A stretch of DNA of 35,630 bases from Armatimonadota bacterium (GTDB lineage Bacteria; Armatimonadota; UBA5829; DTJY01): positions 1 to 35,630 of the forward strand of contig JAIMAU010000020.1 of the NCBI GenBank assembly GCA_023511795.1. The letters run 5' to 3'. Every line of letters starts with the position of its first letter. Position 1 is the first letter of the stretch. The translations under genes and the position numbers were made by a program. The notes beneath the pieces were generated by a model. The model ran no database searches. It saw only the letters and a list, made by a program, of their open reading frames with translations, and had not been told where the DNA came from. Positions 2,494-24,155 of the stretch are shown here, in pieces.

Positions 2494-5400
2494 ATGAGAC
2501 ATACTCGGCGAAGTACTGAAGGCGTTCTTATTCTATTTGCATCCCTATTATTGCTAATGGGGTTTGCACTAGTCTATGCTGCAAAGCTCCCGCAACTTTA
2601 CGAAGGTGAGAAAGCAAACATAAACACTGCCGATGAAAATACGTTATCGGCAATTATGGGTATTGACCGCAGGCTTGCAAAACTTATATGCGAATACCGC
2701 AGAAAGAACGGGAATTTTACAGATGTTGATTCGCTTGGACGTATAAAGTTGCTCACCAAAGATGAAGCGGAGAAAATTGCTTCATTAAATGCCAGTCGCA
2801 AAATTGACCTTACAACTATTAGTCCTGAAGAGCTTTCAGCACAAGCAGGAATCAGCCCCGAAGTCGCCTATAGAATTTTGGAAGCAATAGCAACAAGAGC
2901 CCCAGGTGAACCCATAACGGCCATTCTTCTGTCAAAAATTCCTCTTATTTCTAGTGATACTTTGGCCTCACACAAAAAGATCCTGAGAGTTCGAGATGCT
3001 GAGCGAGTAATGATTTCATTTTGGATAAAAGCCTTTCTCATGATAAGCGGGTTCTTTATATTTCATTTTACACTGAGAAAAAAAGCACCAAATGCTGACC
3101 CTTACCTCATACCATGTGTAATGGTGCTTTCAGGGCTAGGATGCATAATTTTGTTTTCAATTAAGCACCCGCTTCAAGACACCGACGTTTTCAGCCGTCA
3201 AGTTCAAGGTGTGCTTATTGGCATTGTCTTCGCAATAATACCCATAAATGCAAAATTCAGCACACTGCGTCTTTGGCGGTATACTTATCTATATGCAATC
3301 TTCGCCATCATCTTAACCATAGCGCTAGCACTGTTTGGCAAAGGCCCAGGAGGAACACGACTAAGTTTATTGGGAATTCAGCCGGTAGAGATAGTTAAGC
3401 TTGCCTTAGCTTTTTTTGTTGCGAGTTATCTTGCTGACCGTTGGAGTATCCTCTCCGACCGCACTGGTCCACGTCGCCGATTTCAGCTTCCTTTATTCCG
3501 TGATATCGGTCCCCTAGCTGTAATGTACTTTCTCTCCCTCGCCACGTTTATCATGGTTAAGGATCTAGGCCCGATGCTTGTCCTTTTTGGAATGTTTGTC
3601 GTGCTACTTTACGCTGCAACTGGAAACTCTTTATTTATCGTAGCCGGACTTGGACTCATTGCATTCAGTGGTTGCATTGCCTATTTTTTAAAGCTAGGGG
3701 TTTTTGATGTGCGCGTTGATATGTGGCTTCATCCATGGGCAAATTCGCATGCGAACGGAATGCATCTTGCGCAATCACTTTGGGCGTTGGCAACTGGTGG
3801 ACTATGGGGAAGCGGCTTAGGACTTGGGCAACCGAACTACATACCAAGAGCAGGCTCAGACCTCGTTTTCTCTTCGCTAGGTGAGGAGATTGGTCTTCTT
3901 GGCACGATTTTAATGCTTATCTTATATTCAGTACTCCTATCAAGATGCTTTCGAATTGCAATTCGGGCTAGAAATGATTTTGAAAGGTTTCTTGGGGCGA
4001 GCATAGCATCACTTCTAGGAATCCAAACGGTTGTTATAATCTTCGGTGTGCTTGGAATCCTTCCGCTTACTGGAATTACCTTACCATTTACCAGCTTTGG
4101 GCGGTCTTCAATGATTGCCTCATTCTTTGCATTGGGCTTATTGCTGAGTATTTCATCTGACGGTTCGATTTACTCGTCAAATATTCCAATACAAACCAGG
4201 CGAGCACTCAACCGCCTTGCAACCAGCCTCGTTGTTTTATTACTGGGTGGAGCCGGAATATGCCGCCTGATGTGGATTCAAGGCATCCAGGCAGACCAAA
4301 TAGCTGGTTCATTAGTGATAGTACCCGACGCTGATGGCATTTCACGCCCCCACATCAATCCCCGATTAAAAGCTATAGAAGCAAGAATACCCAGGGGAAC
4401 TATTTTCGATAGGAATAACCAAATAGTAGCGTTTTCCCACAATGGGAGAAGGTTTTACCCATATGGTGGGTCTATGGTTCACCTTGTAGGCTATCTTGAT
4501 TCCAGATATGGTGGCCCAACTGGAATAGAAAAAAGCAGAAACAATGACCTTCGTGGCTTTGATAATTACTCAGACCTTCTCCCAATATATCGTCTGAGCC
4601 ATATGCCTCACTGTCCAAAGCTAAAAGGAAAAGACATAAAGCTTACAATTGACGCCAGACTTCAGGCAAAGGTTGAGAATGCGCTCAGGAAATACGCAAA
4701 TGCTTTAGTCGACAAGCGCACCGGAAGGGTCAAAAACAAAGGTGCTGCAGTTGTTCTAGATGTTTATACGGGTGAGGTACTTGCCGCAGTTTCAATTCCA
4801 AATTTTGACCCCAACAAGCTTTCGTATCACAATTGGAGGAAATATATGGCTGATTTAAATAACGACCATGTGCTCATTAACCGAGCACTGAATGGCCTTT
4901 ATCCTCCAGGCTCAACGTTCAAAATTATTACAACTGCAACTGCGCTTCAGAATGGAATTGATTTCAAGTATATCTGCAATCATAGCGAACATGGAGTAAC
5001 ATGGCGGTGGAAAGGCAAAACATTCGCACGAAAACGCATTACCGACCTCGAGGATATGTCGCCTCATGGTTTGGTTGATATGGGAAAAGGCCTTAGAGTA
5101 TCTTGCAATCTATATTTCGCACATTTGGCGATGGAGCTGGGTCCTGAGCTTTTGTATAAGACAGCAACAAAAGGCTTTAAGCTAGAACATATCCCACCGC
5201 CAAAGCTACTCGCTGAAGATTTAGCCGATAGCGGCTATGGACAGGGACGGATTTTGGTTACTCCGCTTGAGATGGCACGAGTTGCTGCAACTATTGCAAA
5301 CAACGGTATCATGATGAAGCCTCAATTTATTAGGGAAATTCGCACCAAAGATGGCAAGATTGCTAAGCAGTTTGAACCAATTGAAATGGGAAGACCTCTG

Positions 5401-5676
5401 GATTACAAAACAGCGGCTCGCCTCCGAAAAATGATGGTCGATATTACCACACGTGGTACAGCTAAGGGCCTTTTCGAGGGCATAGATATTAAAGTTGCTG
5501 GAAAAACCGGAAGCGCTGAGAACGAGCAAGGTGATAGGCTTGCTCATTCGTGGTTTGTAGGATTTGCCCCCGCAGAGGACCCCCGAATTGCCTTTGCCGT
5601 TGTTATCGAAAATGGAGGATTTGGAAGTCGCTCTGCTGGACCAGTATGTCGGGAGATAGTTAAAGCTGCTTTATAA
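2494..5676 (+). CDS. HhH - SEDS (RodA/FtsW) - class B penicillin-binding protein fusion
   Basis: One 1060-residue chain joins both halves of a peptidoglycan synthase. Residues 11-29 are a membrane segment. Residues 42-84 are a ComEA-type helix-hairpin-helix (NINTADENTL..IMGIDRRLA..I), with a second weaker HhH at about 104-152. Residues 174-193 are another membrane segment. Residues 203-562 are a SEDS glycosyltransferase (GGTRLSLLGIQPVE; GGLWGSGLG; GSDLVFSSLGEEIG, where D456 aligns with the catalytic Asp of RodA). Residues 580-600 are a membrane anchor. A short pedestal (RGTIFDRN, HLVGY) leads into a transpeptidase with SxxK at S807-K810, SxN at S870-N872 and KTG at 1004-1006. All catalytic signatures are intact, so the protein should polymerise and crosslink glycan strands. 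SEDS proteins and class B PBPs normally work as separate partner proteins. The ATG start has only a weak ribosome binding site. The HhH domain is predicted to lie outside the cytoplasm. It could serve elongation or division. Confidence 0.92.
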   Translation: MRHTRRSTEGVLILFASLLLLMGFALVYAAKLPQLYEGEKANINTADENTLSAIMGIDRRLAKLICEYRRKNGNFTDVDSLGRIKLLTKDEAEKIASLNASRKIDLTTISPEELSAQAGISPEVAYRILEAIATRAPGEPITAILLSKIPLISSDTLASHKKILRVRDAERVMISFWIKAFLMISGFFIFHFTLRKKAPNADPYLIPCVMVLSGLGCIILFSIKHPLQDTDVFSRQVQGVLIGIVFAIIPINAKFSTLRLWRYTYLYAIFAIILTIALALFGKGPGGTRLSLLGIQPVEIVKLALAFFVASYLADRWSILSDRTGPRRRFQLPLFRDIGPLAVMYFLSLATFIMVKDLGPMLVLFGMFVVLLYAATGNSLFIVAGLGLIAFSGCIAYFLKLGVFDVRVDMWLHPWANSHANGMHLAQSLWALATGGLWGSGLGLGQPNYIPRAGSDLVFSSLGEEIGLLGTILMLILYSVLLSRCFRIAIRARNDFERFLGASIASLLGIQTVVIIFGVLGILPLTGITLPFTSFGRSSMIASFFALGLLLSISSDGSIYSSNIPIQTRRALNRLATSLVVLLLGGAGICRLMWIQGIQADQIAGSLVIVPDADGISRPHINPRLKAIEARIPRGTIFDRNNQIVAFSHNGRRFYPYGGSMVHLVGYLDSRYGGPTGIEKSRNNDLRGFDNYSDLLPIYRLSHMPHCPKLKGKDIKLTIDARLQAKVENALRKYANALVDKRTGRVKNKGAAVVLDVYTGEVLAAVSIPNFDPNKLSYHNWRKYMADLNNDHVLINRALNGLYPPGSTFKIITTATALQNGIDFKYICNHSEHGVTWRWKGKTFARKRITDLEDMSPHGLVDMGKGLRVSCNLYFAHLAMELGPELLYKTATKGFKLEHIPPPKLLAEDLADSGYGQGRILVTPLEMARVAATIANNGIMMKPQFIREIRTKDGKIAKQFEPIEMGRPLDYKTAARLRKMMVDITTRGTAKGLFEGIDIKVAGKTGSAENEQGDRLAHSWFVGFAPAEDPRIAFAVVIENGGFGSRSAGPVCREIVKAAL

Positions 5677-5717: not shown

Positions 5718-6833
5718 TTGACAAAAGAATCGTTGTTCCCAGATAAACGCGAGATTGCAGAAAAAGAACGCCGTGTTAAGGAATTCATGGAACTAAAAGG
5801 GCTTGATGCTCTCGTGCTAACTACCCAAAGCAATTTCGCCTGGTTCACTTGCGGTGCCGATAATCGCGTGGCAAACGCAACAGAAATAGGAGTAGCTTCT
5901 GTGGTAATCACTAAGGACTCGAAGTACATAGTTTGCGATAATATTGAATACCCTCGAATATTTGATGAGGAAGTCGGTGACCAAGGGTTTAAGTTCAAAA
6001 CTTATAATTGGTGGGAAAGCAACCTAGCTGATGAGATTAGTAAACTTACAAGCGGCACTGTAGGTGCTGATACTATAATTGCTGGTACAAAGTTGGTTGC
6101 TGGCGATATTTCGCCGCTCAGATATTCGCTAACCGAACAGGAGATAGAACGGTACCGATGGCTTGGTATCAATACAGCTGAGTGCATGTATGAAGCTTGT
6201 ATTGAAGTCAGACCAGGAATGACTGAGCACCAGATTGCAGCCTTACTTGGCGGCAAGCTTATGGAGAGGGGCATAATACCAAACCTAATTCTGATAGCAG
6301 CCGACGAACGAATAAGTAAATATAGACACCCAATTCCCACAGAAAACACTTTGGAAAAATACGCAATGCTGGTTACCTGCGCCCGAAAATGGGGACTAAT
6401 CCTTTCAATGACACGAATAGTTCACTTTGGCTCAATCTCACCAGAACTCAGACATAAGCATGACGCAGTTATGCAAGTGGATGCCAAATTAATCGGCGCA
6501 ACCCGGCCTGGTGCACGGGTGGATTTCATTTTCGGCAAGGCAATCGAAGCATATAAGCGCACAGGTTTTCAAAATGAGTGGCACTTCCACCACCAAGGTG
6601 GTCCAACTGGCTATGCAGGCAGGGATTATCGTGCTAGACCAGAAGTTGCTGGAATCGTTGAGACAAATCAGGCTTTTGCATGGAACCCTTCTATCGCTGG
6701 CACTAAATCCGAAGACACTATAATTGCTTTGACAAATCACACCGAAATCATTTCGACCCATAAGGACTGGCCAACGAAAACAATTGAGATTAACGGAGCA
6801 AAAATTGAGCGACCTGATATAATGGAAATGTGA
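5718..6833 (+). CDS. M24 (Xaa-Pro peptidase/creatinase fold) protein lacking Asp metal ligands
   Basis: This 371-residue protein has the creatinase-type N-terminal domain (residues 1-130; LDALVLTTQSNFAWFTCG) followed by a pita-bread M24 domain. The start is TTG 5718 behind AAGGAGG (5702-5708). In active metallopeptidases of this fold, five ligands bind two metals (D, D, H, E, E). Here the His region (HHQGGPTGY, H291-H292) and the two Glu regions (VETNQAFAWNP and KSEDT) are present. The two Asp positions read T220 (LVTCARKWG) and S230 (ILSMTR). The protein is therefore either metal-independent, like creatinase, or a non-catalytic relative. It starts 41 bases after the SEDS-PBP fusion and is probably cotranscribed. 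No signal peptide is visible, so it should be cytoplasmic. The substrate is unknown. Confidence 0.85.
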   Translation: MTKESLFPDKREIAEKERRVKEFMELKGLDALVLTTQSNFAWFTCGADNRVANATEIGVASVVITKDSKYIVCDNIEYPRIFDEEVGDQGFKFKTYNWWESNLADEISKLTSGTVGADTIIAGTKLVAGDISPLRYSLTEQEIERYRWLGINTAECMYEACIEVRPGMTEHQIAALLGGKLMERGIIPNLILIAADERISKYRHPIPTENTLEKYAMLVTCARKWGLILSMTRIVHFGSISPELRHKHDAVMQVDAKLIGATRPGARVDFIFGKAIEAYKRTGFQNEWHFHHQGGPTGYAGRDYRARPEVAGIVETNQAFAWNPSIAGTKSEDTIIALTNHTEIISTHKDWPTKTIEINGAKIERPDIMEM

Positions 6834-6860
6834 CCGTTTGGCGAACAGGGGGTGCCAAAT

Positions 6861-8936
6861 ATGAAGTTTGAAAGGCGCATACACCTTCTCGCCGGCTTGC
6901 TCCTTGCAATTGCAACATTTCTTGTGTTTTGTCGGGTGCTAAGCCATGATTTCATTAACTTTGACGATGGTGTTTATGTCTATTCGAATGCTAATATCAA
7001 AGAGCTGACGTTTCAAAGTATTGGATGGGCATTCAAAACAATGCAAGCGTCCAATTGGCATCCTCTTACATGGATTTCGCATATAATTGACTATCAACTT
7101 TTTGGTTTAAAGGCGGCCGGCCATCACTTCACGAGTCTTCTACTCCACATTATGAATTCCCTTCTGCTTCTGTATATCCTAAACCGTATGTCTGGCTCAT
7201 TTTGGCGAAGTATTTTTGTGGCCACATTATTTGCGCTTCATCCGCTTCATGTGGAATCGGTGGCCTGGGTCGCTGAGAGGAAAGATGTCCTAAGCACCTT
7301 GTTCTGGATGCTCACAATATGGGCTTATTTGAGATATGTCCAATCACCCAAAATTAAAACTTATATTCTCGTAATAATCTTGTTTTCGCTTGGTCTTATG
7401 TCCAAGCCAATGCTCGTAACCCTCCCATTTGTGCTCCTTCTACTTGACTACTGGCCGCTTTGCCGTACTACGCTTAGTCACCGTCATTCACAAGTTGCTT
7501 TTCCCGTCGGGGTCAAAAAACTTTTGTTAGAGAAAACGCCCCTGTTCTTCCTGTCAGCAACTTCGTGCGCTATTACATACATTGTTCAGCAAAAAAGTGG
7601 AGCAGTGATTCCCTCTGAACGACTGCCTTTCAGCATTCGGCTGGAAAACGCCATAGTTTCATACCTTGCTTATATTTTTAAGATGGTGTGGCCTGCTAAG
7701 TTAGCTATCTTTTACCCTCATCCAATGGCTGGCTTACCTATATGGCAAGTACTTGGCACTAGTGTGATTCTAATCACAGCTTCGTTTCTCGCAATCATTG
7801 TTCTTAAGAAATACCCCTACATATGCGTAGGATGGTTTTGGTACCTTGGAACGCTTATACCAGTAATTGGCCTTGTCCAAGTTGGAACACAGGCAATAGC
7901 TGATAGGTATACATATATTCCACTTATAGGGATCTTCATAATAATTGCCTGGGGGATACCGGATTTTATAGCACGCCTCGAAGAGCATAGAATAAGCAGG
8001 GTAACAACGAGAAGAATATATTCTCCTCATCAGTTTCATTTATCTTTTCTACAGTTCATCGCATATATTTCTATTATTGCTTTTAGTGTATGTACATGGC
8101 TTCAATTAGGATATTGGAAGAACAGCATAACAATATTTAAGCGTGCTATTGCCGTTACTGGTGAGAATAGCGTAGCACAATATAATTTAGGAGTTGCTTT
8201 TGCCGCTCAAAACAAACCTGCTCTGGCACTTCCTCATTTTGAGGAAGCCGTGCGAATAGACCCATTCAATTTTTTCGCCCGCTACAATCTGGGCAAAGCT
8301 CTAGATGAAACCGGCAGGTATTCCGAAGCAGAGGAACAATTTCGCGCTGCTATACTGCTCAATCCAAACGATGCCGATTCACATAACAACTTAGCTTGCG
8401 TTTTATTGGAGCAAGGTAGATATGATGAAGCGATTGCTGAATATAAAGAAGCCATTAGGCTTAAGCCTAATGATTCCTTAATTCGCAATAATATGGTCTC
8501 AGCTTTAATAAAGAGAGGCGATTTATCAGAAGCGCTAAAGCAATATACCAAAGCCCTTAGAATCAACCCTAACGACCCTTTTGCTCATTACAACATGGGA
8601 AACATGATGGTGAAGCAACAGAAATGGAACGAAGCAATTCGCCACTTTTCTGAGGCTGTACGCTTGAAGCCAGACTATGCCGACGCATATTATAATTTAG
8701 GTGTTACATATCAAACAATCGGAAACCTCGATAAAGCATATCAAGCATATCAGCAAGCTATAAGAGCCAAACCAGGGTTCGGAAAGCCTCATAACAATAT
8801 GGCAGTCATTCTTTACACGCTCGGAGACTATGCTGGAGCCTGGCGTGAGGTAGAGCTATATATAAAATGGGGTGGCTGCCCTCATCCAGGATTCATTAAG
8901 GCTTTGTCCGAAAAGATGCCAAAGCCGCCAAATTAG
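6861..8936 (+). CDS. TMTC-like GT-C membrane protein with six TPRs
   Basis: This 691-residue protein is a paralogue of the proteins at 701, 12373 and 18498. About ten membrane segments fill residues 8-425, with the acidic pair D35-D36 (NFDDGVYV) in the first external loop and the conserved HPLHVESVAWVAERKDVLS and ADRYTYIPLIG blocks. From about residue 433 come six full TPRs (DEAIAEYKEAIRLKPND type), a degenerate last repeat and the family tail WREVELYIKWGG-PHPGFIKALSEKMPKP. ATG 6861 is preferred over the in-frame GTG 6852. The purine-rich CAGGGGG at 6845-6851 sits about 9 bases before the ATG but abuts the GTG. This is the first gene of a TMTC - DUF2142-like - GT39 triplet that is repeated downstream. 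Predicted role: glycosyl transfer from a polyprenyl-phosphate sugar on the outer membrane face, with TPRs binding acceptors or partners (inferred from eukaryotic TMTC). Confidence 0.86.
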   Translation: MKFERRIHLLAGLLLAIATFLVFCRVLSHDFINFDDGVYVYSNANIKELTFQSIGWAFKTMQASNWHPLTWISHIIDYQLFGLKAAGHHFTSLLLHIMNSLLLLYILNRMSGSFWRSIFVATLFALHPLHVESVAWVAERKDVLSTLFWMLTIWAYLRYVQSPKIKTYILVIILFSLGLMSKPMLVTLPFVLLLLDYWPLCRTTLSHRHSQVAFPVGVKKLLLEKTPLFFLSATSCAITYIVQQKSGAVIPSERLPFSIRLENAIVSYLAYIFKMVWPAKLAIFYPHPMAGLPIWQVLGTSVILITASFLAIIVLKKYPYICVGWFWYLGTLIPVIGLVQVGTQAIADRYTYIPLIGIFIIIAWGIPDFIARLEEHRISRVTTRRIYSPHQFHLSFLQFIAYISIIAFSVCTWLQLGYWKNSITIFKRAIAVTGENSVAQYNLGVAFAAQNKPALALPHFEEAVRIDPFNFFARYNLGKALDETGRYSEAEEQFRAAILLNPNDADSHNNLACVLLEQGRYDEAIAEYKEAIRLKPNDSLIRNNMVSALIKRGDLSEALKQYTKALRINPNDPFAHYNMGNMMVKQQKWNEAIRHFSEAVRLKPDYADAYYNLGVTYQTIGNLDKAYQAYQQAIRAKPGFGKPHNNMAVILYTLGDYAGAWREVELYIKWGGCPHPGFIKALSEKMPKPPN

Positions 8937-8954: not shown

Positions 8955-10499
8955 ATGCATATTAGTATAAGTTCTAAAAAAAACCTTAATCATTCTTCTC
9001 AGAAAATAGGTCGGAATCAAAGATGGCGTGTTGAACAGCTTTTTGTATTAATCTTATGCATAGCTTCCTCAATTCGCATATTCTTGTTCGCCGCAGGATT
9101 TCCAGTCTTTACCAACGTAGATGAGCATGCCCACTTCGACTTAATTTGCAAATACTCAAAAGGAAAAATACCAACTGGCCTTGGGAAATACGACCATGAT
9201 GCAAACAGAATGATATTGCTATACGGGTCGCTAGAATATCTATACAATCCGTCAGATTTCCCGACTGGGGAAATCCCTCCTCCTATATGGAAACTGCCTC
9301 CTAAAGCACAAGAATTTGTTTTAGAGAAAAGGCTTGAAAAGGTTAAAGACGATCTAAATCATGAATCTACACAACCGCCTGTGTATTACTATGTTGCGGC
9401 ATTATGGTACAAACTTGGCCAGGTATTGCAAATAGGAAACGGATTCATACTCTACTGGGTAAGGTTTTTAAACATTATAATCTATTCCATGCTCATCTGG
9501 CTATCCTATATGTTTGCAAGAAAGTATTACTACGAAGACGCCTTCTTAAGACTAAGCTTGCCTTTGGTATTGGCTTTTTTTCCACAAGACGTGTTTTTTT
9601 CCATAAATAACGATGTTTTAACGCCTCTTGTGTTTACCGCAGCTCTTCTATGTTTATTCGACTGCCTTATAAGCGAATCAAATGGCCTTGCCTTCTATTT
9701 GCTAACTGGTCTTCTTATCGCCACTGCATTCCTAGTAAAGATCACAGCTTTCGTAATTTTCATAATGCTAGGCTTCGTGGTAATTCTTAAAGCCATTAGA
9801 CTCAAAAATGAAAGAAGATTTTCCGACGGTATGCCGGCACTTGCCATATTGGCTTTAAGTGCATTAGCGCCTGCTGGGTTATGGCTACTAAGAAATTACT
9901 TTGTATTGGGAGATATAACGGGCTCAACAGCAAAAATTAATATGCTAACTTGGACTGCTAAGCCATTTACAACAATATGGGACCATCCGATATTTACCCC
10001 TGCTGGAGCGCTTACGTTTTGGAGCGAATTAATGAAAACCTTCTGGCGGGGAGAAATTACCTGGCATGGCGAAAGGCTTTCGTGGGATTTTGCTGATGGA
10101 TTTTATTGGATCTCGTCATCGGTTTTCCTGATCGCTTTTATATATAGCTTACTTCTAATGCGACTGCAAACAAAATCAAAAATCATTGACATAGCAAACT
10201 TCATAGTTTTTGGAGCATCAATTTTGTTTATGGCTGGAATTTCTATTTCTTACGATTACGGCAATTGCTGGTATCCTTCCCAAGAACATCCATATTTTAC
10301 TTCTGGTAGGCTAATATCAGACGCACTCGTGCCGTTTCTCATTTTATATCTTCAAGGTTTTAAAATCTTAACGTCCCGATTGAAATCATACATTAGATGG
10401 GCCGCGCTAGGAGTAATAATCGCGCTTATGTTAGCTTCAGAGATAGCGCTTTCTATCCCGGTATTCGGGAGCGCATATAATATGTTTCACTTGCACTGA
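8955..10499 (+). CDS. DUF2142-like GT-C membrane glycosyltransferase
   Basis: This 514-residue multi-pass membrane protein has a cytoplasmic basic N-terminus, a first membrane segment at about 28-50 and then a loop with NVDEHAHFDL (D56-E57). An acidic pair after the first membrane segment is typical of GT-C glycosyltransferases. Further hallmarks shared with its paralogue at 14448 are ESTQPPVYY, FFPQDVFFSINND, WTAKPF-IW-HPIFTP and FWRGE. It is most like the DUF2142/PMT-like group of predicted membrane proteins, whose substrates are mostly uncharacterised. A GAGGAG sequence lies 13 bases before ATG 8955, overlapping the end of the upstream TMTC-like gene (18-base gap), so the two are probably cotranscribed. 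The final codons form half of a hairpin (10484-10516). Confidence 0.75.
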   Translation: MHISISSKKNLNHSSQKIGRNQRWRVEQLFVLILCIASSIRIFLFAAGFPVFTNVDEHAHFDLICKYSKGKIPTGLGKYDHDANRMILLYGSLEYLYNPSDFPTGEIPPPIWKLPPKAQEFVLEKRLEKVKDDLNHESTQPPVYYYVAALWYKLGQVLQIGNGFILYWVRFLNIIIYSMLIWLSYMFARKYYYEDAFLRLSLPLVLAFFPQDVFFSINNDVLTPLVFTAALLCLFDCLISESNGLAFYLLTGLLIATAFLVKITAFVIFIMLGFVVILKAIRLKNERRFSDGMPALAILALSALAPAGLWLLRNYFVLGDITGSTAKINMLTWTAKPFTTIWDHPIFTPAGALTFWSELMKTFWRGEITWHGERLSWDFADGFYWISSSVFLIAFIYSLLLMRLQTKSKIIDIANFIVFGASILFMAGISISYDYGNCWYPSQEHPYFTSGRLISDALVPFLILYLQGFKILTSRLKSYIRWAALGVIIALMLASEIALSIPVFGSAYNMFHLH

Positions 10500-10643: not shown

Positions 10644-12365
10644 TTGCCTTCAATAAGCAGTAAAGCTATTCCACTTAGTTTCTCCCCCCGGAAGCTGGTG
10701 GTTTTGGTGGCGAAGCGCGGGAAACGCGCAACAAAGTGTCATAATGCACCTAATAAGAGCAAAATGCAATGGGCATGGTTGCTCGTTTTCATTGTGGTGC
10801 TTTTTTGTGCGACAATACGAATTAGGCTACTCCCAACGCCGCTCGAACGCGATGAGGGCGAATACGCCTACGCGGGCCAGCTAATCCTGCAGGGAATCCC
10901 CCCATATGTGCGTGTTTATAATATGAAGCTTCCAGGCACCTATGCTGTTTATGCCATCGCCATGGCACTTTTTGGTCAAAATCCAACTGGTATCCACCTC
11001 GGTTTGCTTTTCGTAAATGCTACCACTATAATCCTGGTATTCTTATTGGCACGAAAACTGTTCGACACCTTAACAGGCTTGGTAGCATCTGCGAGTTTTG
11101 GCATCCTTTCTCTTGGCGCATCTGTTCTGGGCGTTTTTGCGCACGCCACCCACTTCGTAACATTACCAGCAATTGGCGGACTGCTACTTCTGTTAAAAGC
11201 CAAAGAACTGAGAAGTCGCTCAATGTTGTTTTGGAGTGGTTTATGCCTTGGGCTTGCATTTTTAATGAAGCAACATGGCATATTCTTTGTAATCTTTGGT
11301 GCTTCCTATATTCTCATTTACAACGCTCACTTCTCTTTACGGCAAGAGAAAATTGGTTTCTTAAATCAAAAATTGGTTGACGCGGCGATATTTCTCCTCG
11401 GCGCCGCTGTCCCACTTGTTCTTACATGCCTAATTTTGTTATTGACAGGAGCACTCCAAAAGTTCTGGTTTTGGACTTGGACATACGCTCTTCAATATGT
11501 CACAGAAACATCTTTTTCCACTGGCTGTAAACTATTTAGGAGTGGCATCGGTTACGTTGTGCAGTCAGCACCCGCGCTTTGGATTTTGGCAGGGTTGGGC
11601 TTGATTTGTCTTTTTGCAGATCGAGAATGGCGAAAGCGTGCGCCTTTTGTTGGAGGGCTACTGCTTTTCTCATTTTTTGCTATTTGTCCTGGTTTTTATT
11701 TTCGTAGTCATTATTTTATCGTGGTGCTGCCAGTACTAGCTATTCTCAACGGCATCGCTGTCAGTACCATATATAATATTGCAGAAAGAATACACGCTCC
11801 TATATATCGTAAAGCAGCTGTGTTGGCATTTCTTTTGATTTTAGGTTATTCTATATTCCAGCAGAAAACATTTCTATTCAAAGCCACGCCCTGTGAGGTA
11901 TGCAGATTATCCTATGGCGCCGCCTGTTTCCCTGAGGCTCTGGAGGTTGGAAAATATATTAGGGAAAACAGCACCAAGGATGACCGAATTGTCGTCCTAG
12001 GTTCCGAACCTGAAATCTACTTTTATTCGCGTCGGATGTCAGCCACAGGATACATCTACATGTATCCTCTTATGGAGTCTAGTCCTTTAGCCGAAAAGAT
12101 GCAACGCGAAATGATCAAGGAAACAATGGCATCAAGACCTAAATTTCTAATTGCAGTTTGCATCCCAACCTCATGGATGCGCAGGCGTGAGTCACCAACC
12201 TTATTGTTTGACTGGTTTAACCAATACTCGACGGATAATTACCAATTAGTGGGAAGTGTGGAGATACTTAGCCTAGAACGAACCGAATACCGCTGGGGAG
12301 AAGAACTGAACGCTTATAAACCGAAGGCGGAAAACAGGATTCTTGTTTTCATGCGAAGACAGTAG
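10644..12365 (+). CDS. GT39/PMT-like membrane glycosyltransferase
   Basis: This 573-residue protein (from TTG 10644) has about ten membrane segments and the GT39 signature LLPTPLERDEGEYAYAGQLI, with acidic pair D70-E71 in the first external loop. An extracytoplasmic C-terminal domain carries VLGSEPEIYFYSRR and YIYMYPLMES. GT39 enzymes (protein O-mannosyltransferases, ArnT-like) use polyprenyl-phosphate sugars. The start is uncertain. No good ribosome binding site precedes TTG 10644, and the first 40 residues (basic, KRGKRATK) have no counterpart in the paralogue at 16039. ATG 10764 gives a shorter protein beginning MQWAWLLVF just before the first membrane segment. The TMTC-like gene at 12373 starts 7 bases after this stop, so the two are cotranscribed. 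Confidence 0.83.
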   Translation: MPSISSKAIPLSFSPRKLVVLVAKRGKRATKCHNAPNKSKMQWAWLLVFIVVLFCATIRIRLLPTPLERDEGEYAYAGQLILQGIPPYVRVYNMKLPGTYAVYAIAMALFGQNPTGIHLGLLFVNATTIILVFLLARKLFDTLTGLVASASFGILSLGASVLGVFAHATHFVTLPAIGGLLLLLKAKELRSRSMLFWSGLCLGLAFLMKQHGIFFVIFGASYILIYNAHFSLRQEKIGFLNQKLVDAAIFLLGAAVPLVLTCLILLLTGALQKFWFWTWTYALQYVTETSFSTGCKLFRSGIGYVVQSAPALWILAGLGLICLFADREWRKRAPFVGGLLLFSFFAICPGFYFRSHYFIVVLPVLAILNGIAVSTIYNIAERIHAPIYRKAAVLAFLLILGYSIFQQKTFLFKATPCEVCRLSYGAACFPEALEVGKYIRENSTKDDRIVVLGSEPEIYFYSRRMSATGYIYMYPLMESSPLAEKMQREMIKETMASRPKFLIAVCIPTSWMRRRESPTLLFDWFNQYSTDNYQLVGSVEILSLERTEYRWGEELNAYKPKAENRILVFMRRQ

Positions 12366-12372
12366 TTTAAAG

Positions 12373-14325
12373 ATGCAAAATCGCTATTTAGTAATTTTAT
12401 TCCTCATTACTATAACCCTTGTCGTTTTTCTCCAAGTTAGTAGTCATGAGTTTCTCAACTACGATGATGATGTGTATATTACTGCCAACCATCATGTTCG
12501 GAATGGGCTAACTTTAGAATCAATCAAATGGGCTTTTACAACTACATATGCAAACAATTGGCATCCCCTAACGTGGATATCACACCTACTTGACGTGCAG
12601 TTATACAAGCTCAAACCCGCCGGGCATCATGCAACTAACCTTTTAATCCACGTGTTGAATGTTGCGCTCCTATTCGTAGTGCTAGAAATGATGACCCATT
12701 CGAGATGGCGAAGTGCATTCGTTGCAGCCATGTTCGCAATACACCCTCTCCATGTAGAGTCAGTTGCCTGGGTAGCTGAAAGAAAAGATGTTTTAAGCTC
12801 TTTCTTCTGGATACTAACACTTTTTGCACACCTACGATACACCAAATATCCAAGGGCAACCACTTACGTTCCTGTGGTTTTAATCTACGCCCTCGGCTTA
12901 ATGTCAAAGCCAATGCTAGTAACTCTTCCATTTGTACTTCTCCTGTTGGACTACTGGCCACTAGGCCGAACAACTTTTGCTCATGAGCAACTTGCCGGCT
13001 CTATAGAAAAGCACAGTATTGGAAAGTTAGTAATAGAAAAGATTCCCCTATTGGTCTTAGCAGGAGCATCTTGCACAATGACATATATTGCACAGGGTGA
13101 GGCGGTTGCGCCGTTCGAAAGGTTTCCATTTGGTATCCGCGCGACAAACGCTGTTGTAGCATTTGTCTCTTATATTCTGAAGATGCTCTGGCCAGTTAAC
13201 CTTTCTGTTTTTTACATGCATCCTTCAACGTCTCTTCCAACATGGCAGGTATTAGGAGCCGGGGTTGTCCTTGTTTGCATATTTGTTCTTGCATTGCGAA
13301 ATGCTTTCACCCATCCGTATATCCTAGTAGGATGGCTGTGGTATTTTGGAACATTAATACCCGTAATCGGCTTAATTCAAGTTGGGGCACAAGCAATGGC
13401 AGATAGATATACTTATATGCCACTTATAGGCATCTTTATCATAATTGCTTGGGGAGTACCGAAACTGCTAGGAAATTCACGGATTGGGGTAGAAAAGGGG
13501 AAAAGGAAAAAAGAAGCTTTCGTTCCTAAATCTTTCATTCTGCCATTTGCTGCACTGCTTATTATAATAAGCCTTACGATCTCGGCCTGGTATCGGACGA
13601 GTGTTTGGAAGAATAGCATAACCTTGTTTGAGAATGCACTTAGGTCGAACCCAAACAATTATATTGCACACAACAATCTTGGGGTAGCTTTGGAAAAAGC
13701 AAACAAGTTAGAGGAAGCTGCAGCTCACTACGAAGTCGCTTTACGACTCAAACCAAATCACCCCCAAGCCCACAATAATCTCGCTAATATTTACTTCCGA
13801 ACAGGCAAAGTGGACAAAGCAATTCTAGAGTACAGAAAGGCTTTGAAGCTAAAACCCAATGATGCAGGCATTCACAATAATCTTGGGGTAGCTCTTGCCG
13901 AAAAAGGCATGCTGGACGAGGCAATTAAAGAATACAAAATAGCTCTGCAGATTAGACCAGACTACGACAAAGCACACCTAAACCTTGGGATGGCATTGGC
14001 AAGACTAGGAAAATTTAGAGAAGCTGCCGATGAAATGAACAAAGCACGAAACATTAGCCCAGAAAGTTCGGAAGGCCACAACAATTACGGTGTAATACTT
14101 GCAGGACAAGGAAAGGTTTTGGAGGCAATAGAGCAATTCAAAGAAGCACTGCGGCTTAAACCTGAAAATGCAGAGGCACATAAAAATCTGGCTGTTGCGT
14201 ATTATCTAACCGGAAAGTACGCGGACGCATGGAGGGAAGTGCAATTATACCGCAAATACGGTGGAACGCCGCATCCTGGTTTGATTCAAGCTCTTACAAA
14301 AAAAATGCCTAAGCCTCCAAAATGA
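12373..14325 (+). CDS. TMTC-like GT-C membrane protein with five TPRs
   Basis: This 650-residue paralogue has the usual membrane domain (residues 5-420) with acidic D31-D32 (NYDDDVYI), HPLHVESVAWVAERKDVLS and ADRYTYMPLIG. Five full TPRs start near residue 425, followed by a degenerate repeat and the tail WREVQLYRKYGG-PHPGLIQALTKKMPKP. ATG 12373 is chosen because the in-frame TTG 12343 lies inside the end of the upstream GT39 gene, and the resulting extra residues have no match in the paralogues. Only a weak ribosome binding site is visible, so coupling to the upstream gene (7-base gap) is likely. It opens the second copy of the TMTC - DUF2142-like - GT39 triplet. Function is inferred from eukaryotic TMTC O-mannosyltransferases. 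Confidence 0.86.
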   Translation: MQNRYLVILFLITITLVVFLQVSSHEFLNYDDDVYITANHHVRNGLTLESIKWAFTTTYANNWHPLTWISHLLDVQLYKLKPAGHHATNLLIHVLNVALLFVVLEMMTHSRWRSAFVAAMFAIHPLHVESVAWVAERKDVLSSFFWILTLFAHLRYTKYPRATTYVPVVLIYALGLMSKPMLVTLPFVLLLLDYWPLGRTTFAHEQLAGSIEKHSIGKLVIEKIPLLVLAGASCTMTYIAQGEAVAPFERFPFGIRATNAVVAFVSYILKMLWPVNLSVFYMHPSTSLPTWQVLGAGVVLVCIFVLALRNAFTHPYILVGWLWYFGTLIPVIGLIQVGAQAMADRYTYMPLIGIFIIIAWGVPKLLGNSRIGVEKGKRKKEAFVPKSFILPFAALLIIISLTISAWYRTSVWKNSITLFENALRSNPNNYIAHNNLGVALEKANKLEEAAAHYEVALRLKPNHPQAHNNLANIYFRTGKVDKAILEYRKALKLKPNDAGIHNNLGVALAEKGMLDEAIKEYKIALQIRPDYDKAHLNLGMALARLGKFREAADEMNKARNISPESSEGHNNYGVILAGQGKVLEAIEQFKEALRLKPENAEAHKNLAVAYYLTGKYADAWREVQLYRKYGGTPHPGLIQALTKKMPKPPK

Positions 14326-14447: not shown

Positions 14448-16025
14448 ATGCCCAAACTCGCAAGTACCAAGCGGCGTTCTCGTCTGAGACGCGCCGAAAC
14501 AAGGGAATTAAAAAGAATCCCTTTGTGGGACTCTTTTACGGCGAAAAATGAATTCACAATCGTCGTGATATTGTGTATTGTTGCTGCTCTGCGCATTTTC
14601 ATTTTCAGTGCAGCGTTTCCATTCTTTAACAATGTGGACGAACAGGCTCACTACGACTTAGTTTATAAATATTCTAAGGGCCAAATTCCAAGCGCACTAG
14701 AGAAATTTAGTGCCGGCGCAAGCGAGCTAATCGTCCTTTTTTCCTCGCCCGAATACTTATGCAATCCACTTAGCTTCCCCAATGCGAAATTTCCGAAGCC
14801 AATGTGGAACTTACCTCCAAGCGAACTAGCACCTGCACTGAAACTAGCAACGATAAACCTAATGAATAAAACAAACTACGAATCCACCCAGCCGCCTGTT
14901 TTCTATATTATCGCAGGTTTATGGTATAGACTAGGTGAGTTATTGAACTTACGCGATGGCATGCTTCTATACTGGACGAGGTTTCTGAATGCTGTACTTT
15001 TTATTCCACTAATTTTGCTTTCTCACCGATTCATTAGAATCCCTTACCCCGACCGGCTGTTCATGCGCATAGGAGTACCAGCAATGATAGCGTTCTTCCC
15101 CCAAGATGTCTTCTTTTCAATAAACAACGATGCGGTTAGTCCACTGTTCTTTACAGCTGCTTTTCTTTGTTTGTTAGAAATATACCTTTCACGTTCAAAG
15201 AGCTATGCGTTTTATGTTTTTACCGGCATCCTGGTAGCAGTAACCTTTATGGTTAAGTTCACAAATGCCGCGATATTTGCAGCTTTAATGGCTGTAGCTG
15301 CTTTAAGAATCGTTGAACTTTCAGCGGTTGGAAAAATTGGACGTGAATTGCCAAAGATTATATTGATGATTTTTTCAGCCATAACACCAACTGCTCTCTT
15401 TCTAACTAGAAACCTACTTGTATTAGGCGACATCACCGGCATGTCCGGAAAGATAAATATACTTGGGTGGACAGCAAAGCCTTTTGCTCAAATATGGCAC
15501 CATCCAATCTTCACGCCTGAAGGATTGATTACTTTCTGGAGCGACCTAATGAAAACTTTTTGGAGAGGCGAACTCGTGTGGCACAAGTCTACAGTCGCAG
15601 TGCCATGGGTTGACTCCTTTTATTGGATATCCACCACAATTTTTCTATTTGCGGCGGCCGTGAATTTGATTCTATACAAGCGGCAAAATCGAGATACTGG
15701 TTGGATAGCAGACATTTTTGCGTTTGGCGTGATTGGCCTTTCCGTATTAGGACTGGCAGTAATCTCGTTGGTATATGACTTCGGAAGGTGTTGGTATCCC
15801 TCGAGTCAACATCCATATCTTACATCTGGCAGGTTGATAATTGGAATCATGGTGCCATTTATAGCGCTCTATCTTAGAGCTATTGAATTTATTCTGTGGA
15901 AAACAGGACTAAGAAGCTCTCGCTGGTTGGCTTTATGTATAATATTAGGACTGATGCTTGGATCCGAAATAGCAATTTCTATCCCAGTATTCGGCAGTTT
16001 ATACAACTGGTTTCATATGATTTAG
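14448..16025 (+). CDS. DUF2142-like GT-C membrane glycosyltransferase (second copy)
   Basis: This 525-residue protein is a paralogue of the one at 8955 along its whole length. It has a basic N-terminus (RRSRLRR), a first membrane segment at about 36-56, then NNVDEQAHYDL with D64-E65 in the first external loop. FFPQDVFFSINND, WTAKPFAQIWHHPIFTP and FWRGELVWH are shared. About ten membrane segments are predicted. The acidic pair and topology support a GT-C glycosyltransferase. The donor is probably a polyprenyl-phosphate sugar and the acceptor is unknown. ATG 14448 lacks an obvious ribosome binding site. The GT39 gene follows after 13 bases, repeating the order seen at 8955-12365. Confidence 0.75.
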   Translation: MPKLASTKRRSRLRRAETRELKRIPLWDSFTAKNEFTIVVILCIVAALRIFIFSAAFPFFNNVDEQAHYDLVYKYSKGQIPSALEKFSAGASELIVLFSSPEYLCNPLSFPNAKFPKPMWNLPPSELAPALKLATINLMNKTNYESTQPPVFYIIAGLWYRLGELLNLRDGMLLYWTRFLNAVLFIPLILLSHRFIRIPYPDRLFMRIGVPAMIAFFPQDVFFSINNDAVSPLFFTAAFLCLLEIYLSRSKSYAFYVFTGILVAVTFMVKFTNAAIFAALMAVAALRIVELSAVGKIGRELPKIILMIFSAITPTALFLTRNLLVLGDITGMSGKINILGWTAKPFAQIWHHPIFTPEGLITFWSDLMKTFWRGELVWHKSTVAVPWVDSFYWISTTIFLFAAAVNLILYKRQNRDTGWIADIFAFGVIGLSVLGLAVISLVYDFGRCWYPSSQHPYLTSGRLIIGIMVPFIALYLRAIEFILWKTGLRSSRWLALCIILGLMLGSEIAISIPVFGSLYNWFHMI

Positions 16026-16038
16026 CAAATCAAGCAAA

Positions 16039-17688
16039 ATGACAAAGCGGAATTATCACAAAAGAGAACATAAGGAAAAACTTAAAGGTCCACAAATCCA
16101 ACGGCAAGCCTGGATACTGCTGGCAATCGCAATCTTCGCAATAGCACTAATACGCATACGTCTGCTTCCAGTTCCGCTCGAGCGCGATGAGGGCGAATAT
16201 GCCTATGCAGGCCAGCTTATTTTAAAAGGCATACCTCCGTACCTGCATGTATACAATATGAAATTTCCTGGAATATACGCTGTATATGCGCTAATAATGG
16301 CATTGTTTGGACAAACAATTGTTTCCATTCACCTCGGGCTCCTTATTGTAAATATCATTACAATTGTCCTTATTTTTCTTATAGGAAAGCGATTTTTCAG
16401 TCCAACAAGCAGTGTAGTAGGAGCAACAACTTATGCAATATTTTCCCTCGGCCAGCCCGTGCTTGGAATGTTTGCCCATGCCACTCATTTCGTCGTTTTG
16501 TTTGCACTCTGTGGATATCTTCTTCTCATGAAGGTGTTTGAATCGAAAAGGATTCTGCTTCTTTTTTTGAGCGGCTTTTGTTTTGGGATTGCAATCTTAA
16601 TGAAGCAACATGGATTTTTATTTGGCGCATTCGCCTTGCTTTACTTGGTGCTTGTGCAAAGAAAAAACAATATTTTCACACTCAAGCAATGTGTGGCAGG
16701 AACTTCCCTCTTCGCATTGGGATTGGTCATTCCACTCGGTATAACTTGTCTAATCCTTATTGAAGCAGGCGTGTTCAATAAATTTTGGTTCTGGACTTTC
16801 ACATATATTAGACAATACGCTAGCCAAGTGTCCCCTGCTTTGGGTTGGGAGCTTTTTAGCGAGAGAGCCATTAAAATATTTCTTGCATCTCCGTTACTTT
16901 GGCTGCTTGCAGCATTGGGGTTTATAATCATTTTAGCGAACAAGGAAATGAGACCCAAAGCCCTTTTTATCATAGGCTTATGGATATTCTCGTTCCTTGC
17001 CATCTGCCCAGGACTCTATTTTCGCGATCATTACTTCATTATGACTCTCCCGGCTAATGCGATGCTAGTCAGTGCCGCCTTTAGTTATCTCAACAAAATA
17101 ACGGCTGGGACTAAGCTTGCTGCAATGCCCTTGATAATCATTATTGCCGCAGTAGGTCACTCGTTTTTTACTCAGCGGGAAGTTTTATTTTCGCTTAGCC
17201 CTAACATGGTAAGCCGTGAAATTTATGGTGGGAATCCATTTCCTGAATCTTTGAAAATTGCTGAATATATTAGAAAGCACACGTCACCTAATGATACTAT
17301 AGCTGTATTGGGTTCCGAGCCACAGATATATTTCTATTCGAAACGTCGGTCTGCAACTGGATACATTTACATGTATCCGTTGATGGAAATTCATCCATAT
17401 GCTTTGCAAATGCAGATGGAAATGATCCGAGAAATCGAGGCTGCGAAACCTAAAATTCTCGTCTGCGTAAGCGTGTCAACCTCATGGTTGCCTTTGGAGA
17501 ATTCGGTAATGAAAGTATTCGACTGGTCAAGCAGGTATGCCAGAAAGTATTATGATTTAGTTGGCAATATAGAGATAATTGCTATGGACTATACTAGATA
17601 TTCGTGGGGTGAAGAAGCAGCAAAGCATAAGCCAAATGTGCCTGCAGTAATTTACGTTTTTAAGAGAAAGCCTACCCTAAGTAAATAA
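16039..17688 (+). CDS. GT39/PMT-like membrane glycosyltransferase (second intact copy)
   Basis: This 549-residue protein is closely related to the one at 10644. A basic cytoplasmic N-terminus (KREHKEKLK) is followed by a membrane segment, then LLPVPLERDEGEYAYAGQLI with acidic D50-E51. About ten membrane segments follow, then an external C-terminal domain with VLGSEPQIYFYSKRRSATG and YIYMYPLMEI. The Trp in VFDWSSRY marks the position replaced by a stop codon in the broken copy at 3-659. Family knowledge: GT39 enzymes transfer mannose or related sugars from polyprenyl phosphate to proteins or lipids. The GT2 gene that could make such a donor begins 13 bases downstream, which supports a shared pathway. 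Confidence 0.87.
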   Translation: MTKRNYHKREHKEKLKGPQIQRQAWILLAIAIFAIALIRIRLLPVPLERDEGEYAYAGQLILKGIPPYLHVYNMKFPGIYAVYALIMALFGQTIVSIHLGLLIVNIITIVLIFLIGKRFFSPTSSVVGATTYAIFSLGQPVLGMFAHATHFVVLFALCGYLLLMKVFESKRILLLFLSGFCFGIAILMKQHGFLFGAFALLYLVLVQRKNNIFTLKQCVAGTSLFALGLVIPLGITCLILIEAGVFNKFWFWTFTYIRQYASQVSPALGWELFSERAIKIFLASPLLWLLAALGFIIILANKEMRPKALFIIGLWIFSFLAICPGLYFRDHYFIMTLPANAMLVSAAFSYLNKITAGTKLAAMPLIIIIAAVGHSFFTQREVLFSLSPNMVSREIYGGNPFPESLKIAEYIRKHTSPNDTIAVLGSEPQIYFYSKRRSATGYIYMYPLMEIHPYALQMQMEMIREIEAAKPKILVCVSVSTSWLPLENSVMKVFDWSSRYARKYYDLVGNIEIIAMDYTRYSWGEEAAKHKPNVPAVIYVFKRKPTLSK

Positions 17689-18497: not shown

Positions 18498-20627
18498 ATG
18501 CGACGAGATTACCTAATCTATGTTCTTCTAGTTATAATAACTTTTGCTGCCTTTGGACGTGTTTTAGTCAATGATTTTGTGGTCTATGATGATGACAAAT
18601 ACGTAACCCACAACGAACATGTTAAGGCAGGACTAACGCCCGAAGGCCTAGCATGGGCTTTCACCGCATTCCACGCTGCCAATTGGCATCCTCTGACTTG
18701 GATTTCCCACATGGTCGATTGTAGCGTATATGACATGAAGCCATGGGGACACCATCTTACTAATCTTCTTTTGCATGTGGCGAATGTTCTGCTACTTTTT
18801 CACATCCTAAAATTGATGACTGGCTCAATATGGAAAACCGCTTTGGTAGCCGCATTATTCGGCGTGCATCCCTTGCATGTCGAATCAGTCGCCTGGGTTT
18901 CAGAACGAAAAGACGTTCTAAGTACATTTTTCTGGCTAATCACAATGTGGGCGTACTATCGATATTCCAGATGCCCAAAGCTCGGGTCATATATCCCAGT
19001 TGTGCTATTTTTTGCACTGGGCCTAATGTCAAAACCAATGCTTGTAACACTTCCATTCGTTCTACTTCTACTAGACTGGTGGCCCCTCGGACGCATAAGC
19101 CTTAAAAGTTACACCCTAGTCCTTAAGCCAGGAAGTATTGTTAGGCAACTTCTAAACGAGAAGATTCCCCTTTTCGCGCTTGCTGTTGCATCAAGCATTG
19201 TAACCTTTATCGCACAAAAGGAAGGCGGGGCTGTTGGAACGCTAATGGAAATCCCGCTCGACATGCGGATAGGAAACGCTCTTCTATCTTACATGCGCTA
19301 CATAGGCAAAATGATTTGGCCTTGGCCACTAGTGGTTTTCTACCCACATTCAATACATGGATTACCCATTTTGAAAGTAATTTTCGCTTCGATTTTATTC
19401 CTAGCAATTACTTGGCTAGTAATAAAACAAATGCACCGGCGACCTTACATGGTCGTTGGTTGGTTTTGGTACATCGGCACTCTAGTTCCAGTAATCGGAA
19501 TTATACAAGTAGGCCGCCAGGCAATGGCAGATAGGTACACATACATTCCACTCATCGGCATATTTATAATACTTGCCTGGGGTATCCCTGACTACTTCAA
19601 CACGCGAATAAAAGAAAAAGCCAAAAAAGTGTCCTCCATTCTGCCATCGATAACATGCATTATAATTGCTGTCTTTGTTGTTTGCACTTGGTGCCAAGTG
19701 GGCTATTGGAAAGACACAATTGCTTTGTTTGGCCACACTCTTCCAATTACAGGCTCCAACTACGTAGTTCACAATAACCTTGGAGTTGCTTTTTCTGAGA
19801 AAAAGCAATACGAACAAGCCATAGCCCACTTTCAAAAAGTCTTAGAAGTCGAACCCAACGACCCCGATACAAACTACAACATGGGAAACGCACTTGTAGC
19901 CATCGGCCGCTTTTCTGAAGCAGCCAAATATTACAGGGCAGCAGTCAAAGCTGACCCAAACTATGCTTATGCGCACAATAATCTTGGCAATATCTTGTCA
20001 CAGCAAGGTAGGCTCGATGAAGCAATCGAAGAATATAAGAAAGCGTTGCAAGCTAAACCCGATGATTTAGATATTAAACGCAATCTAGAGACTGCGCTTT
20101 CACAACGTGCTAAGAAAACAAACACAGCTACGAGTCTCTATGAGGCCATTAAAGCAAATCCCAACGATGCAAAAGCTCATTATGAACTTGCAGTTATTCT
20201 TGAAAACCAAACTGACTTCGAAGGTGCCATCGAGCACTTCTCCATCGCAGCTCGATTAAAGCCTAGCTACGCCACTCACTATCACCTAGCAAATATCCTT
20301 TCGAAAATGGACCGCGTTGATGAAGCTATTCGCCATTATCGAGAAGCAATTCGCTTGGACCCAAAGCGATTTGAAGCCCACTACAATCTCGCAAACACCC
20401 TTTCAAGGCAGGGAAAGCTAGATGAAGCAATCGGGGAGTATGTCGAGGTCATACGCCTTAAGCCTGACTTCGCAGACGCCCATAACAATCTTGCCATCGC
20501 ATTATTTGAAAAGGGTGATTATGCTGGCGCTTGGCATCATGTATATCTTTCGCGACAGAACGGCGGTAACCCCCATCCTGAATTCATACGCGCTCTGTCA
20601 GAGCATATGCCGGACCCAGGAGGGTAG
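18498..20627 (+). CDS. TMTC-like GT-C membrane protein with seven TPRs
   Basis: This 709-residue paralogue starts 4 bases after the GT2 stop, so it is almost certainly translated from the same message. Its membrane domain (residues 5-415) has D31-D33 (VYDDDKYV), HPLHVESVAWVSERKDVLS, LMSKPMLVTLPFVL and ADRYTYIPLIG. Seven TPRs follow from about residue 417; the fourth (NLETALSQRAKKTNTA) is clearly degenerate. A final partial repeat and the tail VYLSRQNGG-PHPEFIRALSEHMPDP end the protein. Its adjacency to the putative donor synthase supports use of a polyprenyl-phosphate sugar. The TPRs would face outside the membrane if topology matches eukaryotic TMTC proteins. Confidence 0.87.
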   Translation: MRRDYLIYVLLVIITFAAFGRVLVNDFVVYDDDKYVTHNEHVKAGLTPEGLAWAFTAFHAANWHPLTWISHMVDCSVYDMKPWGHHLTNLLLHVANVLLLFHILKLMTGSIWKTALVAALFGVHPLHVESVAWVSERKDVLSTFFWLITMWAYYRYSRCPKLGSYIPVVLFFALGLMSKPMLVTLPFVLLLLDWWPLGRISLKSYTLVLKPGSIVRQLLNEKIPLFALAVASSIVTFIAQKEGGAVGTLMEIPLDMRIGNALLSYMRYIGKMIWPWPLVVFYPHSIHGLPILKVIFASILFLAITWLVIKQMHRRPYMVVGWFWYIGTLVPVIGIIQVGRQAMADRYTYIPLIGIFIILAWGIPDYFNTRIKEKAKKVSSILPSITCIIIAVFVVCTWCQVGYWKDTIALFGHTLPITGSNYVVHNNLGVAFSEKKQYEQAIAHFQKVLEVEPNDPDTNYNMGNALVAIGRFSEAAKYYRAAVKADPNYAYAHNNLGNILSQQGRLDEAIEEYKKALQAKPDDLDIKRNLETALSQRAKKTNTATSLYEAIKANPNDAKAHYELAVILENQTDFEGAIEHFSIAARLKPSYATHYHLANILSKMDRVDEAIRHYREAIRLDPKRFEAHYNLANTLSRQGKLDEAIGEYVEVIRLKPDFADAHNNLAIALFEKGDYAGAWHHVYLSRQNGGNPHPEFIRALSEHMPDPGG

Positions 20628-22838: not shown

Positions 22839-24119
22839 TTATTCTTTCTTTAAACTGCTTGACATTGCCCGTTCAGAATCATCCCAAATCGTCTTGACAG
22901 AAGGGAAGGGGGCAAGTGCACGACTGAGGATGCCATGGATATAGGCTAGTGTGACCCCGTAATTCGTCATTGGTACCCCGGCTTCACGTGCCTGCTTCTG
23001 GCGAAAACACATTTCACGGCGGTTGAGCGTGCAACCTCCACAGTGAACAATTACTTTGTAACTCTGAATATCTGACGGAAACTCAACTCCAGAGCTAAAA
23101 CCAAACTCCAACTCGCCGCCAATCATGCGCGTTAAATATTGAGGGATTTGCACACTGCCAATGTCATCTTTTTGTCGGTGATGCGTACATCCTTCGGAGA
23201 TGAGCACACGATCACCCGGCTTTAGACTTTTAAGCGCTTGCGCACCTTTTACAAACTCTGCAAGGTCGCCTTTATAGCGTGCCATTAATATGGAAAAACT
23301 CGTCATCCATATGTCGGGTGGAGTATCTTCAGCCACCCTTTTGAATGCTTGGGAATCGGTTACAACTATTTTTGGTTTACGGCTGAGGCTCGCCAATGCC
23401 GCCTTTAATTCGCTTTCCTTGGCAACAACAGCATAGGCGCCATGGTCGAGAACGTCGCGCAGGGTCATTACTTGTGGGAGAATCAATCTGCCCTTTGGTG
23501 CTGCTGAATCAATCGGTACCACCAGGACAACAATTTCACCAGGGTTAATAAGGTCACCAATTATTGTTGGTTCACAGAATCCTGCAGGCGCATTTGCAAT
23601 CAATTCTTGCTTTAAAACTCCAATATTCTCACCAGTTGCAGATGAGACACGAACAAAAGGGAGAGAGCGTTTGCGTGCCCAAACTTCGGCCTGACTCATA
23701 GCTTTGTTATTATCTCCCGCGATAAAATCGCTCTTTGACTCGACTACAATTAATGGAATTTGACGATTGCCAGCCATATTAGCTAGCTTATCTTCCCATT
23801 CGCCAGGAGCTTGCTTTGCTTCAATAAGCAAAACTGCTAGGTCAGTTTTTTCTAACACTCTTAGTGTCTTCTCAACACGAAGCTCGCCAAGCGCCCCAAC
23901 GTCGTCAATACCTGCAGTGTCTGTAATAACCACCGGTCCAATGGGAAGTATCTCCATTGCTTTGGACACGGGGTCGGTTGTTGTGCCAGGAATATCAGAA
24001 ACAATTGCCACTTTCTGACCGGTTAATGCATTAATAAGAGATGATTTCCCCGAGTTCCTGCGCCCAAATATGCTTATATGCAATCGCTCCCCAGATGGAG
24101 TTTGATTCAAACTAGGCAT
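22839..24119 (-). CDS. hydF: [FeFe]-hydrogenase maturation GTPase HydF
   Basis: This 426-residue protein has all three HydF parts. The N-terminal Era/TrmE-like GTPase has the P-loop GRRNSGKSS (residues 19-27), switch DIPGTTTDPV and DTAG. A dimerisation region follows. The C-terminal [4Fe-4S] domain has the HydF ligand pattern C311-x-H313 ... H359-C360-x-x-C363. HydF is the scaffold on which the 2Fe subcluster is assembled with HydE and HydG before transfer to the hydrogenase. Neither partner gene nor a hydrogenase is in this window. ATG (24119-24117) is chosen over the upstream in-frame TTG at 24155 because GGGAG lies about 10 bases before it and the TTG abuts a hairpin. It lies downstream of the GH20-like gene on the same strand. 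Confidence 0.95.
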   Translation of the reverse strand: MPSLNQTPSGERLHISIFGRRNSGKSSLINALTGQKVAIVSDIPGTTTDPVSKAMEILPIGPVVITDTAGIDDVGALGELRVEKTLRVLEKTDLAVLLIEAKQAPGEWEDKLANMAGNRQIPLIVVESKSDFIAGDNNKAMSQAEVWARKRSLPFVRVSSATGENIGVLKQELIANAPAGFCEPTIIGDLINPGEIVVLVVPIDSAAPKGRLILPQVMTLRDVLDHGAYAVVAKESELKAALASLSRKPKIVVTDSQAFKRVAEDTPPDIWMTSFSILMARYKGDLAEFVKGAQALKSLKPGDRVLISEGCTHHRQKDDIGSVQIPQYLTRMIGGELEFGFSSGVEFPSDIQSYKVIVHCGGCTLNRREMCFRQKQAREAGVPMTNYGVTLAYIHGILSRALAPFPSVKTIWDDSERAMSSSLKKE

Positions 24120-24155
24120 TGCAATTTCACTCCCGTTGGCTGGATACAAACTCAA

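Follow-up and report, generated by a model that had tools for sequence, protein, structure and literature searches.

SEDS glycan polymerases and class B penicillin-binding proteins (PBPs) are normally separate partner proteins. The closest described pair is encoded in the actinobacterial fhaA-fhaB-pstP-rodA-pbpA-pknA-pknB cluster; in mycobacteria, rodA and pbpA lie inside this set of FHA, PP2C phosphatase and kinase genes (PMC11898655, PMC6554272), and we found that Actinomyces oris shows the split-pair FHA/PP2C/kinase arrangement too. The two activities have also been joined artificially: engineered RodA-PBP2, SpoVE-SpoVD and FtsW-PBP3 fusions, built in the order SEDS-linker-PBP, polymerise lipid II and are active as one chain (PMC6207328, PMC10449877). 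Single-ORF SEDS-PBP fusions are known from nature as well, according to a passage of one report that cites the Rhodococcus RHA1 genome (PMC10449877), so that although the first-pass annotation of the DNA described here was right to call the two enzymes normally separate partners, a natural join had already been reported.

We analyzed a 35,630-nucleotide stretch of Armatimonadota DNA (the window), in which a single open reading frame on the + strand (2494..5676) runs without an internal stop through 1060 amino acids and carries a SEDS domain and a transpeptidase domain in the same order as the engineered fusions. Pfam recognizes FTSW_RODA_SPOVE at residues 208-555 (3115..4158; 210 bits, cut-off 26.4) and Transpeptidase at residues 750-1056 (4741..5661; 190 bits, cut-off 22.1). 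As the first-pass annotation had claimed, the catalytic motifs of both halves are intact in this one frame: the SEDS Asp, D456, in a GSD motif within the large outer loop, and the transpeptidase motifs SxxK (S807, K810), SxN (S870, N872) and KTG (K1004-T-G1006). The SEDS domain also has E299, K302 and R407, and the PBP part has the features of a class B enzyme, with its three motifs following a single anchor and no GT51 domain.

Hydropathy predicts 13 membrane segments. Segment A (residues 11-29, 2524..2580, + strand as for all features here; AlphaFold2 helix 5-35, predicted N-in) is followed by a helix-hairpin-helix (HhH) region (residues 37-169, 2602..3000), segment B (residues 172-190, 3007..3063), which is predicted to bring the chain back to the cytoplasm, and ten SEDS segments. 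A short, positively charged linker (residues 560-574, 4171..4215), predicted to be cytoplasmic, leads to the PBP anchor (residues 575-593, 4216..4272), for which AlphaFold2 and hydropathy agree. The proposal that one membrane segment links the SEDS and transpeptidase parts is borne out by this profile; the N-terminal part, with two further membrane segments flanking the HHH_3 match, had been missed. The signs of the loop charges fit a cytoplasmic N-terminus, so that the HhH region, the SEDS catalytic loop and the PBP are all predicted to lie on the outer side. Between the anchor and the transpeptidase domain is a short pedestal (residues 634-692, 4393..4569) that matches PBP_dimer (22.9 bits, cut-off 24.4) and PBP_dimer_2 (21.7 bits, cut-off 27) weakly, under both cut-offs; at E <= 0.01, these profiles are found in 18/26 and 17/26 homologues, respectively. 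The whole protein is modelled by AlphaFold2 with a mean pLDDT of 88.8 and a pTM of 0.78.

We searched 291 genomes of the phylum Armatimonadota for homologous frames and found uninterrupted ones in many families. More than 40 separate genomes have an unbroken frame of ~860-1250 amino acids that covers both domains, so the join is no assembly error, and a frameshift or chimera artefact is ruled out. The 26 homologues that we aligned come from diverse Armatimonadota, with identities from 94% down to 34%, and all keep the join; among close relatives, the same-genus genome G224 (94%), and also G225 and G223, retain it. The protein is thus a natural single-chain SEDS-class B PBP with the two parts fixed at 1:1. 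D456, S807, K810, S870, N872 and K1004-T-G1006 are identical in 26/26 aligned homologues, and the combination of intact catalytic residues with long-term conservation suggests that the fusion is probably bifunctional, as the first-pass annotation had argued. It is improbable, at somewhat under one chance in ten, that one half is dead, with the SEDS part serving merely as a scaffold or lipid II presenter while a class A PBP polymerizes: the window's genome does have one class A PBP, of the PBP1A family, and the SEDS branches of some divergent members, L046 and L057, are very long, but R407, E299 and E464 are, like D456, invariant in 26/26 homologues and K302 is kept in 25/26. Divergent SEDS-transpeptidase fusions are found at L056:5017-8286, L046:4427-8065 and L057:5008-8373; the L056 fusion has a TonB_C-like domain in place of the HhH, and those of L046 and L057 carry HHH_3. 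Our search of the literature on Armatimonadota wall synthases found none.

Which class of SEDS-PBP pair has been fused? The first-pass annotation framed the protein as RodA-PBP2, and the best NCBIfam match is indeed to PBP2/MrdA (TIGR03423, pbp2_mrdA; 264.6 bits), with the SEDS part also matching RodA (TIGR02210, 175 bits) and FtsW (TIGR02614, 198.3 bits). All three matches, however, fall under the curated equivalog cut-offs of 455, 336.7 and 337.5, respectively. FtsW, RodA and the fusion together with its split-gene homologues form three distinct clades in the SEDS tree, with RodA separated at 100/100 and the fusion's SEDS part in the third clade, outside that of FtsW. The cut-offs and trees together rule out an FtsW-FtsI or a RodA-PBP2 identity. 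Comparison of the predicted structure with known complexes, which the first-pass annotation had proposed for RodA-PBP2, points elsewhere: in the whole-model fold search, where matches are filled by the transpeptidase domain, the closest structures are M. tuberculosis PbpA chains (3upo among them) at Z ~46, along with coriobacterial transpeptidases. These are the chains from Atopobium parvulum and Eggerthella lenta annotated as 'peptidoglycan glycosyltransferase' (4jbf, 4mnr; transpeptidase domain, Z ~46). Since numbering of the Atopobium chain starts near 523, it covers the C-terminal portion of a ~945-amino-acid protein, and we infer that the N-terminal half, which lies outside the structure, is a SEDS domain.

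The gene content of these genomes also bears on whether the fusion could be a fused RodA-PBP2 at the core of the MreB-guided elongation machine. A standalone SEDS protein in the window's genome scores 381.5 bits and passes the FtsW cut-off of 337.5. Genomes of families f10-f13 and f24 typically encode two standalone SEDS proteins in addition to the fusion (in G045, whose fusion is at C1:1087333-1090557, the two are a RodA that passes its cut-off and an FtsW-like protein that narrowly misses its own), so that true RodA coexists with the fusion there. MreC was found in 0/5 genomes of the window's own family, and 262/291 genomes of the phylum have it. There is no true MreB in the own family either: the best MreB_Mbl matches, of ~60-65 bits, are on frames consistent with DnaK or FtsA, compared to ~440-500 bits for MreB in sister families. 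Both proteins, which an MreBCD elongasome would have in the same genome, are thus missing, and the SEDS-class B PBP pairs of this family come down to the fusion and FtsW-FtsI. Taking the absent MreB and MreC together with the cut-offs and the separate clade, we give the elongation-machine reading about one chance in ten.

In other families, the same SEDS and PBP pair is encoded by two adjacent genes. The order is FhaA-FhaB-PP2C-SEDS-PBP at L041 and SEDS-PBP-PASTA kinase at L043 and L053. In the SEDS tree and the PBP tree alike, these split-gene homologues are set apart from the main fusion group, and the split arrangement is ancestral to the fusion. One fusion, L058 (G247), groups with the split genes, raising the question of two fusion origins; a single origin was not rejected (AU p 0.357). 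A sequence labelled 'Bacteriophage sp.' (L088, MT837429.1) has a bacterial-looking FHA-SEDS-PBP gene set; it was considered as a phage-borne fusion and ruled out, as its genes are split.

The FHA and kinase genes accompany the fused pair too. In G225 and G223, the fusion, FhaA, PP2C and kinase genes lie in a row. In the window's genome, FhaA-PP2C-kinase is at G000:C1 ~319-324 kb, unlinked to the fusion, as it is in G045 and G031; a HEAT-repeat protein (L079:13370-14806) is encoded directly 3' of the kinase in the cluster of the window's genome. Directly 3' of the fusion, where G223 and G225 have the FhaA gene, the window has an M24-type peptidase gene (5718..6833, +), which nothing found here ties to the system. 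Across the 291 genomes, FhaA is present in 80/104 genomes with the SEDS-PBP pair vs 5/187 without it, where the pair-bearing genomes were listed by eye from the search and the counts ignore shared ancestry; several of the 24/104 pair-bearing genomes lacking FhaA at threshold are f12 genomes with the fusion. Within the own class, FhaA or the pair occurs only in G000, G223, G224 and G225. G222, of the same family, has lost both, its fusion gene being wholly absent rather than split; this genome is 99% complete, with a single SEDS gene and no fusion, FhaA or MreC, and is a natural case in which the entire system has been lost.

The fusion thus resembles actinobacterial RodA and PbpA in its PbpA-type transpeptidase (Z 46 to 3upo), its SEDS partner, its association with FhaA, PP2C and a Ser/Thr kinase, and its MreC-less lineage. 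It differs in being one chain rather than two proteins and in the added HhH region. The two FHA domains, on separate FhaA and FhaB proteins in the actinobacterial cluster and at L041, are on one protein in all 8 fusion-lineage genomes checked (G000, G223, G225, G045, G180, G025, G031 and G008). Finally, the kinase of the window's family is without PASTA domains, and the genes are unlinked in the window's genome.

The HhH region sets this fusion apart from the engineered ones, which are man-made, belong to the RodA/FtsW classes and have no HhH. HHH_3 matches residues 39-96 with 62.3 bits (cut-off 27) and is recognized in 21/26 fused homologues; the region is absent or unrecognized in the other 5/26, the f24 members and L032. 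Folded alone by AlphaFold2, the region has a pLDDT of 93.9, and its top fold match is ComEA (8dss, Z 11.3), followed by Tex and GspK and, weakly, PsbU. Both the profile and the fold are therefore of the ComEA type, as is the predicted extracytoplasmic side of the membrane, so that one might expect the region to bind DNA outside the cell and couple wall synthesis to extracellular DNA or to DNA uptake. We consider this very unlikely: most homologues, like the window protein, have another residue in place of the second Gly in the GxG hairpin that contacts DNA (read from aligned segments), other extracytoplasmic HhH relatives such as GspK and PsbU work in protein contacts, and some members lack a recognizable region altogether. 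Unlike ComEA and other HHH_3 domains, this region forms part of a wall synthase, with a membrane segment on either side of it. We take it instead to be a built-in module for protein contacts or regulation. A more specific and quite tentative idea, to which we give perhaps one chance in four, is that the HhH is an outer-face regulator that takes, within the chain itself, the role played by MreC for RodA-PBP2 or by FtsQLB for FtsW-FtsI, freeing the wall synthase from the Mre machine and relaying FHA/kinase signals jointly to the polymerase and the cross-linker.

Outside the phylum, we found further fusions in plasmid CDSs of Rhodococcus pseudokoreensis (946 amino acids) and Spirosoma oryzicola (1323 amino acids), each with SEDS then transpeptidase on one chain, as here; the Spirosoma gene is flanked by Ser/Thr kinase genes and an FHA gene. 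Unlike the window fusion, the Rhodococcus protein lacks an HhH and carries a complete PBP_dimer domain, and both fusions are isolated plasmid genes, whereas the Armatimonadota fusion is a clade-wide chromosomal gene. A scan of genome contigs gave only one relative, in a MAG of the Capsulimonadaceae, a family that NCBI assigns to Armatimonadota, so that outside the phylum the fusion is documented by the plasmid records alone.

Around the fusion gene is a repeated cassette in which five similar membrane proteins with C-terminal TPR repeats (701-2350, 6852-8936, 12343-14325, 18498-20627 and 20642-22813) alternate with PMT_2/DUF2142 membrane proteins (8955-10499, 10644-12365, 14448-16025 and 16039-17688), an annotation for which Pfam was run on 4/9 of these proteins. 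A HydF-type GTPase ([FeFe] hydrogenase maturation) with dimer and tetramer domains is encoded at 22839-24155, and the contig edge possibly holds a gene fragment.

We think it likely, at roughly three chances in four, that the fusion is a working single-chain RodA-PbpA-type synthase under FHA/Ser-Thr kinase control, independent of MreBCD. Counting against this reading are the distance of the FHA/kinase genes from the fusion in the window's genome, the 24/104 pair-bearing genomes lacking FhaA at threshold, and the family's PASTA-less kinase. Neighboring SEDS polymerase and PbpA-type transpeptidase genes of a FhaA-FhaB-PP2C-RodA-PbpA-kinase cluster, known from Actinobacteria, would have fused; within one 1:1 unit, the SEDS part would polymerize lipid II and the PBP part fused C-terminally to it would cross-link what it makes. 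Enzymatic activity is suggested by the sequence, and phospho-control by the gene associations: the FHA protein, PP2C phosphatase and Ser/Thr kinase encoded elsewhere in the genome would probably set the activity of the fusion, which may work independently of MreBCD.

The SEDS-PBP join itself is not new, given the natural fusions already reported and the two found here outside the phylum; what is new is the breadth of the fusion in one phylum, its HhH region, and the FHA/kinase link in a Mre-less family. Current work uses man-made fusions to ask how the polymerase and transpeptidase of SEDS-PBP complexes activate one another; a natural, long-conserved single chain whose pedestal is short and whose stoichiometry is fixed offers a structural model ready for use. 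That a lineage without MreB and MreC retains the fusion together with FHA and kinase genes supports a second, phosphorylation-linked route of wall growth outside Actinobacteria.
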